From: a virus
DNA: 64,000 nt
Reading direction: 5' to 3' (one strand)
Virus record (IMG/VR): IMGVR_UViG_3300025011_000018
Location: 1 to 64,000 of that record
Shown piece by piece: positions 20,552 to 29,015 of this stretch (positions are counted from its first letter, which is position 1; the number at the start of each line of letters is the position of its first letter). Position numbers and translations under genes: made by a program. The notes beneath the pieces are model-generated. The model was not told where the DNA came from and made no database searches. It saw only the letters and a list, made by a program, of their open reading frames with translations.

Positions 20552-20959
20552 TTAACCGTTTCTACCTGCACCATATCCTGAATCAATATCTGCAAATCCA
20601 TTATCCACATTTACAGCATTTATGGCTTCAATTATTCCATCAGAAAAATCACTATAATCAACATCATAATCAGGTTCACCATCTGACTCATCAATATCAT
20701 CACCATCACCAAAAAATATAAAATCAGAATCAATATTTTCTTTAACATAATTTTCTGATGGCGTAAGATCCACTCCTGCCCAATCATATTCAAATAATCT
20801 ACTACTTTTTATCTCTGATAAAAGCTCTTCTCCTGTATATGTGTCATATCCATATTTATCTATTATTGGTTGTGCCTTTTCTTTATCTTTGACCCTTGCA
20901 AATACAGCTATAAAACTACTAGAGCTTGAATTTGTTACAAAATCTGTGCGTATTTTCAT
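20552..20959 (-). CDS. FVTNSSSSSF-leader family protein 1
   Basis: 135 residues beginning MKIRTDFVTNSSSSSF, the motif shared with the next three genes. After the leader the sequence is unrelated to its neighbours: a strand IAVFARVKDKEK, then a very acidic stretch (DGDDIDESDGEPDYDVDYSD) and a Gly-rich end GYGAGRNG. Its ATG overlaps the previous gene's TGA. Last gene of the cluster headed by the radical SAM enzyme. Function unknown; the acidic, Gly-ended tail is notable. Confidence 0.8.
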   Translation of the reverse strand: MKIRTDFVTNSSSSSFIAVFARVKDKEKAQPIIDKYGYDTYTGEELLSEIKSSRLFEYDWAGVDLTPSENYVKENIDSDFIFFGDGDDIDESDGEPDYDVDYSDFSDGIIEAINAVNVDNGFADIDSGYGAGRNG

Positions 20960-21414
20960 ATGTTTGTTCTCCTTTTATATTTCATAAATTTATGCCAATT
21001 AGTAAATTTACTTCTTATTTCATCCATGATTTTATCTTCACTTAAATCAAATTTGTTAAAAACATATTGTATATATTCGCTATCATATAACTTCCTTCTG
21101 CGCTTGTTAGCCTTTTTAACTTCCGCAAACACTTCATCTCTTGTGATTTCTCTGGTTTTTAATAAATAGTCTGCCATTTCGCTTTGAGAATACATTGTAA
21201 AATTACAAATTGGACAACTTTCTTCTGCTATAAAATAACTATCTTCTTCATCATTTTTATAATTTTCCAGCAAATGCTCTTCGCAAAACGAGTGTTCGTT
21301 TACACATCTTCTTAACCACTCTGGAAAATCCCATGTTGTTTCTTCATCTCCGCATATTTCACAAATATAACTCGAACTACTGGAATTTGTAACAAAATCT
21401 TTTCTGAATTTCAT
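20956..21414 (-). CDS. FVTNSSSSSF-leader family protein 2, zinc-binding
   Basis: 152 residues beginning MKFRKDFVTNSSSSSY. After the leader it has zinc-ligand-like pairs CEICGDEE near residue 18, then C-x-H and a CPICN near residue 73. The C-terminal part is basic and helical. The start overlaps the stop of protein 3 by one base. The leader is kept in protein although synonymous codons differ from the other copies. Confidence 0.8.
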   Translation of the reverse strand: MKFRKDFVTNSSSSSYICEICGDEETTWDFPEWLRRCVNEHSFCEEHLLENYKNDEEDSYFIAEESCPICNFTMYSQSEMADYLLKTREITRDEVFAEVKKANKRRRKLYDSEYIQYVFNKFDLSEDKIMDEIRSKFTNWHKFMKYKRRTNI

Positions 21415-21845
21415 TATTCGTCCTCCAAAATTATAAAATTCTCTTTATCTTCGGCAAGTTCATGTATCATATTTGAACAATATGTATCATTATGATCTAC
21501 GCTTTTCCTTAAAATTGTAAACCCATCTTCGATATATTTGCTTGCATTATTATATAGTTTTGATAAATACTCATCGTCTTTTATTATTTTTTCAACTGTG
21601 TCGCAGTTTCTCCATCCATAATAATCAATAAAGTACTTATTCCACTCTTCTTTTGTTGAAATTTTTTCTCCTGCTGTTGTATCATTATCTCCCTCTGTAA
21701 ACAAAACCTTTTCAATCAATCTTGAATAATTATTCAAAAACGGATATTTTTTAATTGTTTCTTCATCAATTTGTGGTAATTCTTTATACGCAACCACGAA
21801 ACTACTTGAACTACTATTAGTCACGAAATCACTTCTTATTTTCAT
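21414..21845 (-). CDS. FVTNSSSSSF-leader family protein 3
   Basis: 143 residues beginning MKIRSDFVTNSSSSSF followed by VVAYKELPQIDEETIKKYPF. The rest is a helical acidic protein with no cysteine cluster except one near the end. Two bases separate it from protein 4. No function recognised beyond the shared leader. Confidence 0.8.
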   Translation of the reverse strand: MKIRSDFVTNSSSSSFVVAYKELPQIDEETIKKYPFLNNYSRLIEKVLFTEGDNDTTAGEKISTKEEWNKYFIDYYGWRNCDTVEKIIKDDEYLSKLYNNASKYIEDGFTILRKSVDHNDTYCSNMIHELAEDKENFIILEDE

Positions 21846-21847
21846 AG

Positions 21848-22237
21848 TTACCTCCTCTGATCACAATAACCGAAAGTATATGGTATTTTATATTTATTTT
21901 CAAAAACATCTTCAACTAAAGACCAATTAAATCTACAACAAGTATTATTATCAATTACATAAAATTGTTGTTCTTCTGGAAGATTTGTGTCTCCATAATT
22001 ATCTTTATTAATTTCTTTGCCTGTTTTTACAAACAATGAACAGCCAATATCTTCATTGTTTAATATCCTTGAAATATTAAAATCCTCATCAATCTCTTCT
22101 TTGGTAAGCCAATCATATGTTTTGTAATAAAAATCTTTAAATGCTCCATTAAATAAATCTTCTAAACTAATATTTTTAGCGGATATAATAAAACTACTTG
22201 ATGATGAATTAGTTACAAAATCCTGCCTAATCTTCAT
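21848..22237 (-). CDS. FVTNSSSSSF-leader family protein 4
   Basis: 129 residues beginning MKIRQDFVTNSSSSSF. I take ATG 22237, eight codons downstream of the longest frame, because GAGAGGAGAAAGGG lies just upstream and because it aligns with the other three leaders. The body is helical with a Cys-Cys-Arg-Phe near residue 104. Its 5' end overlaps the HNH gene by 11 bases. Confidence 0.8.
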   Translation of the reverse strand: MKIRQDFVTNSSSSSFIISAKNISLEDLFNGAFKDFYYKTYDWLTKEEIDEDFNISRILNNEDIGCSLFVKTGKEINKDNYGDTNLPEEQQFYVIDNNTCCRFNWSLVEDVFENKYKIPYTFGYCDQRR

Positions 22238-22937
22238 ATAACCCTTTCTCCTCTCTATCACTAAATTTAAATGTCCACCCTTTATGTTGTTTTCTTTTAC
22301 CTTTTAAACAATCAGATACATTAGAATTAATTAAGTCATTTTGCCTACAAAATTCTCTAACATTTGTAAATGTAAAACTTTCATTACTTGGAGATATGGC
22401 GATTATTTCTTTTAATTTATTGGTAAAATTACAATTTATATAGTTTGTAACCCATATACATGTATCTTTACTATAAACTTTGTTATTACTACCCATTTGT
22501 TTGATATCTTTATCTAGTTGTAATAGATGTTCATTAAAGAGTTTTTCATTATATTCTTCTATTTGTTTTATATCTTTAATAAAATTCTCAAAACATAACC
22601 ACTCTTGACAAACAGTTACTCCTTTTTCGCCATATCTTTCATAAGTTGGATGGATTTTATTGTAACATCTTGTAAGCATTGATTTCCAAATAGAATATTC
22701 ATGAGGATAATCTTTTTTATTATGACATCCTAGATAACCCACTCCTACTACTGTGGGATAATTTTTATCAACAATATGCCCTTTATTTATTTGAGTAGAA
22801 TTTGCATACGCTTTATATTTTGTTTTTATAAATTCTACTTCATAAATAAGATTCCTGTTTTTATCTTTATCTATTATTTGTAACACAATAAATTCTCCAC
22901 TTCTATTGCTTGAATATACTTTTCCAACTTCAACCAT
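22227..22937 (-). CDS. HNH homing endonuclease within the leader-protein cluster
   Basis: 236 residues. HNH/AP2-type pattern: HEYSIWKSMLTRCYN, YGEKGVTVCQEWLCFENF, LQLDKDIKQMGSNNKVYS and TCIWVTNYINCNF. The C-terminal REFCRQNDLINSNVSDCLKG resembles NUMOD DNA-binding repeats ending in GWTFK. It overlaps the radical SAM gene by eight bases and protein 4 by 11 bases, so it has been inserted without breaking the operon. A mobile, probably self-homing gene. Confidence 0.85.
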   Translation of the reverse strand: MVEVGKVYSSNRSGEFIVLQIIDKDKNRNLIYEVEFIKTKYKAYANSTQINKGHIVDKNYPTVVGVGYLGCHNKKDYPHEYSIWKSMLTRCYNKIHPTYERYGEKGVTVCQEWLCFENFIKDIKQIEEYNEKLFNEHLLQLDKDIKQMGSNNKVYSKDTCIWVTNYINCNFTNKLKEIIAISPSNESFTFTNVREFCRQNDLINSNVSDCLKGKRKQHKGWTFKFSDREEKGLYED

Positions 22938-24015
22938 TATAAAAATTCCTCTCTATTCTATTACATAATGTAATCTCATTTACAAATGGGCATCCTCCAC
23001 CACAACTATTTCTATCTACACATTTTTTGCATGAATATCTCAAACTATTTCTAAATCCTTCAAAAATACCGCTATTCCATGCTTCTTTAATCGTATATTT
23101 ATTTAAGTCTACAAGCCATTTGCTATCTTGATTACCAAAAGAACAAGGCATCATATTCATTTGTGCATCTATGTAGGCTGAATATCTCGCTCCTTCACAA
23201 AAATCCATGCTATCCCTATTAATTTTTTCTGTGAAATTAATAATTCCACTACAAGAGCAGCTATCAAAACCAATTTTAAAGTCTACATTATTATCATCTA
23301 TGAGTCTAAAAAATTCTTTTACTCGCTCATCTCCTACTTTTAATACATTTTCTTGACTTCCTAGCCCAACAGGCTTATGCATTAGGAATATAACTGCATT
23401 AATGCCTTTGTCAAAACTATTATTTCTTAATTTATTTATTGCTTCGTTTATTGTATTACTTCCTAGCACATAATGAATATTGACCTTCATCCCAGAATCT
23501 ATAAACATTTTGATTGCTTTTCTTGTGTACTCACTACGATATTCACTTACAGCCACAGCCCCACAATATTGTTTAGTGATTCTTACTTCTTCATCAGTTA
23601 ACCCCAATCCAGAAGTAGTATAATTAGGAATAATATTATTTTCTCTGCAATATTTTACGAACTCTTCAAATTGTTCATGCTTATTAACATCTCCTCTACC
23701 ACCGAGAGCCACCTGAAATGAATGTCCTTTTAATTGGTTAATGATAGTTTTGAAATTTTCTAATGTCATATTGGGTTTTTGAATATGTAATCCATCTTGA
23801 TAGCACTCAATACCACTTTTAACACACAATCCTGATAATCCATGTATACACGTTGACATGATTCCAATATCCACTAATTCAGGCAGATAGCTCATAAAAG
23901 GATCAATTCCAGTATCCTCACCTTTTTCATTTATGACACCAGACCTCATATAGAATCCAGTTTTCGGATTAAACATTGATATAAATTTATTTTTCTTATC
24001 AATTTTTTTAATCAT
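22930..24015 (-). CDS. radical SAM/SPASM protein with wide Cys spacing
   Basis: 361 residues. A radical SAM TIM barrel of a divergent family: the putative cluster cysteines are C56, C64 and C71, spaced CX7CX6C instead of CX3CX2C, followed by YQDGLHI. Then come SFQVALGGRGD, NYTTSGLGLT, CGAVAVSEYR and NIHYVLGSNT. The C-terminal SPASM-like region holds CEGARYSAYID, MPCSFGN and SCKKCVDRNSCGGGCPF, enough ligands for one or two auxiliary iron-sulfur clusters. SPASM enzymes usually modify ribosomally made peptides, and the clustered FVTNSSSSSF proteins downstream are candidate substrates. AGAGGAGATATAA precedes the start. Confidence 0.85.
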   Translation of the reverse strand: MIKKIDKKNKFISMFNPKTGFYMRSGVINEKGEDTGIDPFMSYLPELVDIGIMSTCIHGLSGLCVKSGIECYQDGLHIQKPNMTLENFKTIINQLKGHSFQVALGGRGDVNKHEQFEEFVKYCRENNIIPNYTTSGLGLTDEEVRITKQYCGAVAVSEYRSEYTRKAIKMFIDSGMKVNIHYVLGSNTINEAINKLRNNSFDKGINAVIFLMHKPVGLGSQENVLKVGDERVKEFFRLIDDNNVDFKIGFDSCSCSGIINFTEKINRDSMDFCEGARYSAYIDAQMNMMPCSFGNQDSKWLVDLNKYTIKEAWNSGIFEGFRNSLRYSCKKCVDRNSCGGGCPFVNEITLCNRIERNFYNG

Positions 24016-27896: not shown

Positions 27897-29015
27897 TTAC
27901 GCTACTAAACTTAATATCCTAATTCCTTCTTCTCGTATATTCTTAGCTGCATTGTAATCTCTGTCTATAATAATCCCACATGATTTACATATCCACTCTC
28001 TATCAGATAATTGCAATTCGTGATTTATTTCTCCGCAATCATTGCATGTTTTGCTAGAAGGATACCATTTATCAACCTTAACTAAATATTTACCTTCGTT
28101 CTCTAATTTATATTTAAGCATTGTGGTGAACATGCCCCATCCATTATCTGCAACACTCTTACCTAAATTCAAACACTGACTCATTGCTCTCATATTCAAA
28201 TCTTCAATTACAATTACATTATACTGATTAACTAATTCTCTTGATTTCTTATGAAGAAAATCTTTCCTACAATTAGCAACCTTTTCATGTAACTTAGCAA
28301 CTTTAATTCTTTGTTTATTTCGGTTATTACTTCCTTTTTGCATTTTAGATAATTTGCGTTGTTCTTTTGCTAGTTGTTCTAATGTTTGACGATAGAATAT
28401 TGGATATTCTGCCCTTATACCTTGATTGTCAGTATAAAGATTCTTCATATCCATATCTAATCCTATAACATTGTTTTTCTCTTTAGGTTGAACATACTGC
28501 TCAAATTCAACTAATATACTTATATAATATTTTCCAGAAGGTGTTTTAGATATTGAACAAGACTTAATTTCTTGATTACTTGGAATTTCTCTATGTTGTA
28601 CAATGTTGACCCAGCCAAGTTTAGGTAGTTTGACTTTCTTATTTTTAATTCTGATGTTTCCACCTTGATTATTTGTAGTATAAGAGTTTCTATCTTTATG
28701 CTTACTTTTGAATTTAGGAAAGCCAACATTTTTGCATCTAAAGAAATTGACGTATGCTGTTTGTAAATTCATTTGGGCATTAGCTAGAGCCAAACTATCC
28801 ACTTCTTTAAGCCATTCAAATTCTGCCTTATATTTAGCAGGAGTAGGATTCTTGTGTTTTTTTAATTCTTCTTTATTATCTTTATATTGTTCATATATAT
28901 CTTTACGCTCTGCTAACATTTTATTATATACAAATCTAACACATCCAAAAGTTTTGCTAAATAATATTTCTTGTTCTTCATTAGGATATAGCCTAAATTT
29001 ATAAGCTTTGTTCAT
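27897..29015 (-). CDS. tnpB: TnpB RNA-guided nuclease (Cas12 ancestor type)
   Basis: 372 residues, full length for TnpB. It has an N-terminal helix-turn-helix region AYKFRLYPNEEQ and the RuvC parts D187 (GLDMDMKNL), E271 (VIEDLNM) and D353 (DRDYNAAKNI). The zinc ribbon is C324/C327 and C343/C346 (CNDCG, CKSCG). All catalytic residues are present, so it should be able to cut DNA with its reRNA. TnpA is truncated, so TnpB may persist as a stand-alone nuclease favouring retention of the element. Confidence 0.9.
   Translation of the reverse strand: MNKAYKFRLYPNEEQEILFSKTFGCVRFVYNKMLAERKDIYEQYKDNKEELKKHKNPTPAKYKAEFEWLKEVDSLALANAQMNLQTAYVNFFRCKNVGFPKFKSKHKDRNSYTTNNQGGNIRIKNKKVKLPKLGWVNIVQHREIPSNQEIKSCSISKTPSGKYYISILVEFEQYVQPKEKNNVIGLDMDMKNLYTDNQGIRAEYPIFYRQTLEQLAKEQRKLSKMQKGSNNRNKQRIKVAKLHEKVANCRKDFLHKKSRELVNQYNVIVIEDLNMRAMSQCLNLGKSVADNGWGMFTTMLKYKLENEGKYLVKVDKWYPSSKTCNDCGEINHELQLSDREWICKSCGIIIDRDYNAAKNIREEGIRILSLVA

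Follow-up and report, generated by a model that had tools for sequence, protein, structure and literature searches.

A conserved N-terminal serine-rich tag on diverse phage and prokaryotic proteins and the radical SAM/SPASM enzyme that may modify it

We analyzed a 64,000-nucleotide stretch of the virus record IMGVR_UViG_3300025011_000018 (positions 1 to 64,000 of 154,102 bases; hereafter, the window). On its minus strand, a gene for a 361-residue radical S-adenosylmethionine (SAM) enzyme with a SPASM domain (22930-24015) lies upstream of four small genes whose products begin with nearly the same serine-rich sequence, here called the tag. Our analysis suggests that these genes belong to a previously unrecognized system for chemical modification of the tag by the enzyme. 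We regard the pairing of tag and enzyme as secure, with very little room for doubt. The further step, that the tag is the putative substrate of the enzyme and is modified while part of the intact protein, is in our judgment probably correct.

The original prediction described four consecutive genes starting with MK(I/F)RxDFVTNSSSSS(F/Y), and this was confirmed at 20552-22237 on the minus strand. Tagged protein 4 (21848-22237; 129 residues) begins with MKIRQDFVTNSSSSSF (22190-22237), tagged protein 3 (21414-21845; 143 residues) with MKIRSDFVTNSSSSSF (21798-21845), tagged protein 2 (20956-21414; 152 residues) with MKFRKDFVTNSSSSSY (21367-21414), and tagged protein 1 (20552-20959; 135 residues) with MKIRTDFVTNSSSSSF (20912-20959). 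For tagged gene 4, the open reading frame (ORF) listing starts at an upstream GTG; we took the ATG at 22237 as the start. A search of the whole record found the tag in these four places only, with E values from 6.4e-6 to 1.0e-4. The consensus tag is MK-hydrophobic-(R/K)-x-(D/G)-(F/Y)-V-(T/S)-N-S-S-S-x-(S/C/A/N)-(F/Y), and two hydrophobic residues, lying in the first strand of the tail, usually follow F/Y16.

The five serines of the window tags mix TCN and AGY codons differently in each copy, exactly as had been claimed. Any two of these tags have 13 to 15 of 16 residues alike but share only 29 to 36 of 48 bases and 6 to 10 of 16 third positions; because they are alike in residues and diverged in bases, they are conserved at the level of the protein. 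In the wider set of tagged proteins of at least 60 residues, both codon families occur within 232 of 241 SSSSS tags, and 31 of the 32 possible codon patterns are present. Judged from these sequences, codon use shows protein-level selection on the tag, which bears out the suggestion that selection rather than recent copying accounts for the likeness. The clustering of the genes could also point to another source of the common start (duplication in the recent past, a sequence for recombination, or a signal in the RNA), but the freely differing serine codons and variable third bases rule out recent copying, a DNA recombination site, and an RNA signal. The tag is also listed, by record title, from many phyla and from archaea, and we give explanations of this kind a negligible chance.

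A degenerate tag pattern matched at least 119 stretches in viral contigs and at least 117 in genome contigs, and the tag loci of viral, bacterial, and archaeal contigs encode at least 393 distinct tagged proteins of 60 residues or more (shorter ones were dropped from the protein clustering and the codon count). By record title, the tagged bacterial genome contigs include ones from Bacillota, Bacteroidota, Deltaproteobacteria, Sulfurimonas, Synergistaceae, Chloroflexi, Omnitrophota, and Kaiserbacteria, and the archaeal ones from Methanosarcina, a Lokiarchaeote, and a Thermoplasmatales archaeon. Most genome records are metagenome-assembled genomes, and the taxon of a tag locus may therefore stem from misbinning or from a contig that is viral. 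Two loci, one with 7 tags and one with about 11 (L162 and L220), resemble phage DNA.

When neighboring proteins were clustered, relatives of the window enzyme ranked first, at 158 of the tag loci listed; the next family was found at 39. By profile, the enzyme is present at 155 of the 229 listed loci at which the gene caller placed a tag gene. It is on the same strand as the tag in all 155 and is the adjacent gene in 122, and among tag loci with at least 2.5 kb of sequence on both sides, it is present at 48 of 62. Where the enzyme is not near the tag, it is found elsewhere in 21 of 43 virus records and in 20 of 26 genomes. These 26 comprise 22 genomes with a tag locus and no enzyme nearby and 4 from loci at which no tag gene was called, of which 4 and 2, respectively, are without the enzyme. 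Genome loci were cut as 8-kb tiles, so a missing neighbor there is weak evidence.

The association also holds when the search starts from the enzyme, for which we used a profile built from 22 enzymes beside tags; these tests cover that family rather than all of its distant relatives. In viral contigs searched by enzyme alone, a tag was found at 70 of 80 loci when GTG and TTG starts were allowed, and all 225 tags have the same orientation as the enzyme; with ATG starts only, there were 197 tags at 61 of 80 loci. The first tag scans had already reached 43 of these loci, and 29 of the 37 new ones are tagged. The leader and the radical SAM gene had been predicted to co-occur across genomes, and they do: among 398 genomes of the phylum of Clostridium caldaquaticum, the enzyme occurs in 10 and the tag in exactly those 10, as adjoining genes, and a reversed control pattern yielded 0 among the matches listed. 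The enzyme matches in these 10 genomes lie far beyond the threshold of 1e-20, the weakest being a fragment at 4.2e-55. Three of the genomes had been met earlier via the tag (G001, G008, and G197, the last of which matches locus L171 at 100%); for the remaining seven, the chance of hitting the same 7 of 395 is 3.5e-15 if genomes are taken as independent, though two of the co-occurrence genomes (G144 and G025) are closely related, as judged from their proteins. Among 395 genomes of the phylum of Arenibacter, enzyme or tag was found only in the center genome, which was known beforehand. At three loci from three genomes (L335, L336, and L337), genes that by eye look like siderophore-type ABC transport genes adjoin the enzyme and the tagged gene.

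The tag also varies with the enzyme. Two forms of the enzyme occur in the family, a full SPASM form and a short one. Residue 4 of the tag is R in 244 of 249 tags beside a full subtype b enzyme and K in 65 of 68 beside the short form. The one large tail cluster with both enzyme forms has R in 19 of 19 tags beside the full form and K in 36 of 36 beside the short form. With one vote per tail cluster, the full form is accompanied by 56 R and 2 K and the short form by 2 R and 15 K (P = 7.6e-12). In addition, residue 14 is T in 28 of 28 tags beside subtype a, and residues 4, 6, 9, and 14 differ between enzyme branches. Because residue 4 changes with enzyme form inside a single tail cluster, these data point to recognition of the tag. 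In the sequences compared, residue 4 follows the form of the enzyme and not the family of the tail. Together with the co-occurrence, this co-variation supports the idea, raised at the outset, that the enzyme acts on the leader as a shared tag for different domains.

Several observations weigh against an action of the enzyme on the tag. Ten of the 80 viral enzyme loci are untagged, with no pattern match anywhere in those 10 records, of which 8 are shorter than 21 kb and 1 (L283) seems cut at the contig end; seven of them (L296-L301 and L304), however, look like a set of related phages in which the enzyme persists with no tag close by. The enzyme profile itself came from tag-side enzymes, and relatives away from tags are under-sampled. 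Conversely, the enzyme is absent from the whole record in 22 of the 43 tag-bearing virus records, including records of 177 kb and 121 kb, and from 6 of the 26 tag-bearing genomes. Another radical SAM gene exceeds the Pfam cut-off in 11 of these 22 virus records, and the main family of such genes is tagged at 25 of 54 loci. The phage KP15 has one tag gene (with T or S allowed at position 9), about 20 kb away from its enzyme. The co-variation tests ignore shared ancestry, and they have exceptions: five K residues beside full forms and three non-K residues beside short forms (by cluster, R and N in tail cluster 1 beside the short form and K in cluster 32 beside the full form). Finally, the putative action of the enzyme on the tag is deduced from sequences and predicted models. 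Some of these points would suit a tag that is a sorting or binding signal for another partner, with the radical SAM gene as a functional neighbor that does not touch it; tag-bearing virus records without any member of the enzyme family would be expected in that case, and phages could rely on a partner supplied by the host. A mere neighbor, however, is hard to square with the matching presence and absence of enzyme and tag in 398 genomes or with a tag residue that tracks enzyme form within one tail cluster, and we consider such a signal quite unlikely. In three of the untagged loci (L296, L300, and L304), small proteins that look membrane bound by eye come after the enzyme in place of the tag.

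We considered what kind of enzyme is paired with the tag. The window enzyme contains a Cx7Cx6CY motif followed by SPASM cysteines, and it matches the SPASM models PF13186 (21.6 bits) and TIGR04085 (27.2 bits), both narrowly above the cut-off; PF04055 matches the Arenibacter enzyme and not the window enzyme. Among 96 family members, the three-cysteine SAM motif is Cx3Cx2CY in 45, Cx7Cx6CY in 40, and of other spacings in 11, while C56, C71, and Y72 are kept in all 96. The SPASM cysteines C253, C273, and C291 are likewise present in 96 of 96 and C332 in 95 of 96; by analogy with anSME, these four residues would fully ligate a first auxiliary cluster. C342 is absent in 32 of 96 members, which are of the short form and are missing the second-cluster cysteines, and the second auxiliary cluster is probably absent from them. 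NCBIfam matches of the 96 members scatter over 39 radical SAM models, and for the window enzyme and those of loci L166 and L185, only the cut-off of the general SPASM domain was passed among the NCBIfam models shown. A search of the PDB by sequence with the window enzyme alone gave nothing useful; the family profile matched SuiB, SkfB, PqqE, and anSME. The predicted model of the window enzyme (predicted local distance difference test score [pLDDT], 96.4) is nearest to SuiB (VIA Z, 27.1 over 317 residues), followed by SkfB (23.6), 5why (21.7; presumably CteB), anSME (21.4), ChlB (20.9), and PqqE (20.9). These six nearest solved folds are SPASM enzymes acting on peptides or proteins. With regard to a possible RRE recognition domain, the N-terminal part of the enzyme, about 45 residues, contains three short strands, and the alignments with SuiB and SkfB start at residue 1.

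The likeness to anSME, also a SPASM enzyme, raises the question of whether the tag is a site at which serine is converted to formylglycine, giving the carried domain a reactive aldehyde. anSME modifies serine or cysteine in a full-length protein, its substrates being of one family, and serines form the near-invariant core of the tag. However, the Asp that follows a SPASM cysteine in anSME (PCDF) and serves as its catalytic base is replaced by Ser (PCSF, after C291) in 96 of 96 family members, which indicates that anSME chemistry is not simply carried over. The tag is also without the sulfatase motif, C/S-x-P/A-x-R, and we consider formylglycine formation unlikely.

The proteins that carry the tag have little else in common. 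The original prediction held that everything after the leader is unrelated; this is borne out in the window, where the four tails fall into four separate clusters, but some tail clusters are related in the wider set. Across that set, the tails form 84 loose or 125 strict clusters, and the 41 strict clusters with at least three members reduce to 22, 24, or 25 groups at hhalign probabilities of 50, 90, and 95. That all tails are one diverged family was accordingly rejected in part, as 22 to 25 groups remain and some clusters are related. Outside the window, tagged proteins reach up to 919 residues. Pfam assigned LRR_5 to 6, BRCT to 3, and a PQQ_2 propeller to 1 of 53 long tagged proteins, and an alignment of these 53 has a mean column identity of 7%, with invariant columns in the tag only, in which the search pattern had largely set positions 6 to 13. 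We saw no motif common to the tails among the tagged proteins; an action of the enzyme on the tails, which had been offered as an alternative to action on the leader, is less likely for that reason.

Among the window proteins, tagged protein 3 was informative about the tag itself. It has an alpha/beta tail, and its tag is disordered in the predicted model, with pLDDT below 50 over residues 1 to 10 and a first strand that begins at residue 13. Across 23 homologues, however, 8 of the 10 positions in this disordered stretch vary little or not at all. A tag that is conserved yet apparently unstructured, and that goes together with an enzyme of the peptide-modifying kind, is consistent with a role as substrate. 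For tagged protein 3, fold searches produced nothing reliable (best Foldseek E value, 0.057; best VIA Z, 6.1), and comparison with named phages gave one weak match, to Vibrio phage D479. Tagged protein 1 ends in GYGAGRNG, and a C-terminal YGAGRNG is found, besides the tag, in one tagged protein of that phage (L423). Tagged protein 2 has a tail with a weak resemblance to a RING-like zinc finger (PF14634; 1.7e-4 and 21.9 bits, under the cut-off of 27.9), and the tail of tagged protein 4 belongs to a cluster of five.

Conservation within the tag was assessed at loci chosen by the enzyme, which yielded 158 distinct 18-mers of the tag profile; a match to 9 of 15 consensus positions was required, and two low scorers are probably chance. 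T9, N10, and S11 to S13 are each present in at least 156 of these 158, whereas in tags from pattern scans, positions 6 to 13 are largely fixed by the search pattern itself. Because these five positions hardly vary and residues 4, 6, 9, and 14 vary by branch, we infer that the chemistry takes place at N-S-S-S and that the others help in recognition. In the maturation of ribosomally synthesized and posttranslationally modified peptides (RiPPs), the leader is recognized and the core is modified. The RiPP maturases SuiB, SkfB, CteB, and PqqE have a like fold, a SPASM domain, and a gene beside that of the substrate, as here, where the two genes adjoin (gene distance 1) at 122 of the 155 loci that contain them. 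If the tag were likewise a recognition leader only, the enzyme would modify residues in the tail; both the kinship with RiPP maturases and the dependence of residue 4 on enzyme form would fit recognition alone. The tagged proteins differ, however, from RiPP precursors. Instead of a short precursor with a cleavable leader and a core, we found proteins of 129 to 152 residues in the window with the conserved part at the N terminus and, more widely, large proteins of many families that have only an N-terminal tag in common, the core of which is without cysteine. No shared site was seen among the 22 to 25 groups of tails, and the near-invariant N-S-S-S core exceeds what recognition seems to require. 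A leader used for recognition alone is therefore, in our view, improbable.

We propose instead that the tag would be both recognized and modified. The flexible tag would be bound by the enzyme via residues such as K2, R/K4, D/G6, and F7, and the enzyme would oxidatively alter the nearly constant (T/S)-N-S-S-S core. Because this core has no cysteine, our best guess is chemistry without sulfur, either a cross-link within the tag or oxidation of a serine. The tag would remain attached to the domain that follows, giving all tagged proteins one chemical feature in common, and the tails (zinc finger, leucine-rich repeat, BRCT, beta-propeller, and small folds of unknown type) would decide the site of action. 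Which residues are altered, by what chemistry, and for what purpose are all inferred steps of this proposal.

We found no published description of a tag-enzyme system in the titles and abstract openings of the literature matches listed, with most subscription journals outside the coverage; the tag sequences themselves led to one paper, on hemp wort, which its abstract shows to be unrelated. PHROG 7397, a phage family of unknown function, matches the tag over its first 20 or so positions, and its library entry gives neither a function nor a link to radical SAM enzymes. If the proposal is true, this would be a radical SAM system in which a portable tag, and not a dedicated precursor, marks a protein as substrate; it occurs in phages and, judging from record titles, in two domains of life. 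Hundreds of proteins of unknown function would become approachable through it, a radical SAM modification could be placed on a protein by genetically portable means, and the STAND-linked operon described below would stand out as a candidate defense system.

In this bacterial operon, a STAND-type protein, a protein of about 135 residues, and a tagged protein occur together at 20 loci, 19 of which also contain the enzyme within the stretch covered. Examples, on chromosomes and plasmids, include L166:1266-5796, L232, L180, L417, and L418, and one locus is from Methanosarcina by record title. One plasmid each from Rhodobacter and Agrobacterium has the same gene order, the tag there reading DFVSNSSSTSF; on the latter plasmid, the small gene is present in the DNA and not in the gene table. 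Two plasmid records name the protein in the STAND position an SMEK domain-containing protein. The STAND protein of the Arenibacter operon (about 880 residues) matches models of Avs2 (9.4e-32 in PADLOC; 1.1e-20 in NCBIfam) but, as the one protein tested, does not pass the Avs2 cut-off (73.3 versus 1000 bits). It also differs from Avs2 in length (880 residues against 1317 model positions) and in its link with both a tagged protein and an enzyme of the radical SAM type. Prokaryotic viperins are radical SAM enzymes linked to defense, and the Arenibacter enzyme has a weak PADLOC match to them (1.9e-11), but it falls short of the NCBIfam viperin cut-off (36.8 versus 180 bits); viperins act on nucleotides and are without a SPASM part. 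From gene content, we propose that the STAND operon is a candidate defense system. A broader possibility, somewhat less likely than not, is that phages, bacteria, and archaea share a new category of protein modification, in which one radical SAM enzyme family makes a chemical group in place on a transferable N-terminal tag of unrelated proteins and binding domains such as leucine-rich repeats, BRCT, beta-propellers, and zinc fingers carry the group to different targets; it might serve a STAND-NTPase defense operon in bacteria, and phages, with an enzyme and sets of tagged proteins of their own, would perhaps take over or mislead that machinery.

Distant relatives of the enzyme, at 28 to 29% identity, occur in KP15-type phages of enterobacteria and in Vibrio phage D479, the latter with five tagged proteins of the form GFVSNSSSSSF. 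A search of 50,697 phage records with the KP15 proteins yielded 175 matches for the tagged protein and 174 for the enzyme, distributed almost alike over genera; this pairing is mostly that of one lineage and counts as one or two events. The cultured Escherichia coli phages RB16 and phT4A carry both enzyme and tag, so the system is open to direct testing.

The second viral radical SAM family noted above (A4, with a Cx3Cx2C motif) has the tag within 1 kb at 16 of its 25 tagged loci. It was considered as an alternative enzyme for the tag, but at the level of profiles it is weakly connected with the first family (51.9%), and we treat it as a phage neighbor. Genes of this family (L350-L358, L360, and L362-L415) often precede those of two small proteins of about 110 and 125 residues.

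On the minus strand of the window, the radical SAM/SPASM gene comes first, followed by a gene for an HNH homing endonuclease (22227-22937; PHROG 2081, 2.5e-65; PF22083, 5.9e-10) and then by the four small tagged genes, which overlap or nearly so. The arrangement had been described as tagged genes following a SPASM-type radical SAM gene; the order stands, but the HNH gene sits in between. It overlaps its neighbors on either side, the radical SAM gene and tagged gene 4, by a few bases each and is probably a passenger. Elsewhere in the window, a 372-residue ORF at 27897-29015 resembles, by eye, a TnpB-type transposon nuclease.

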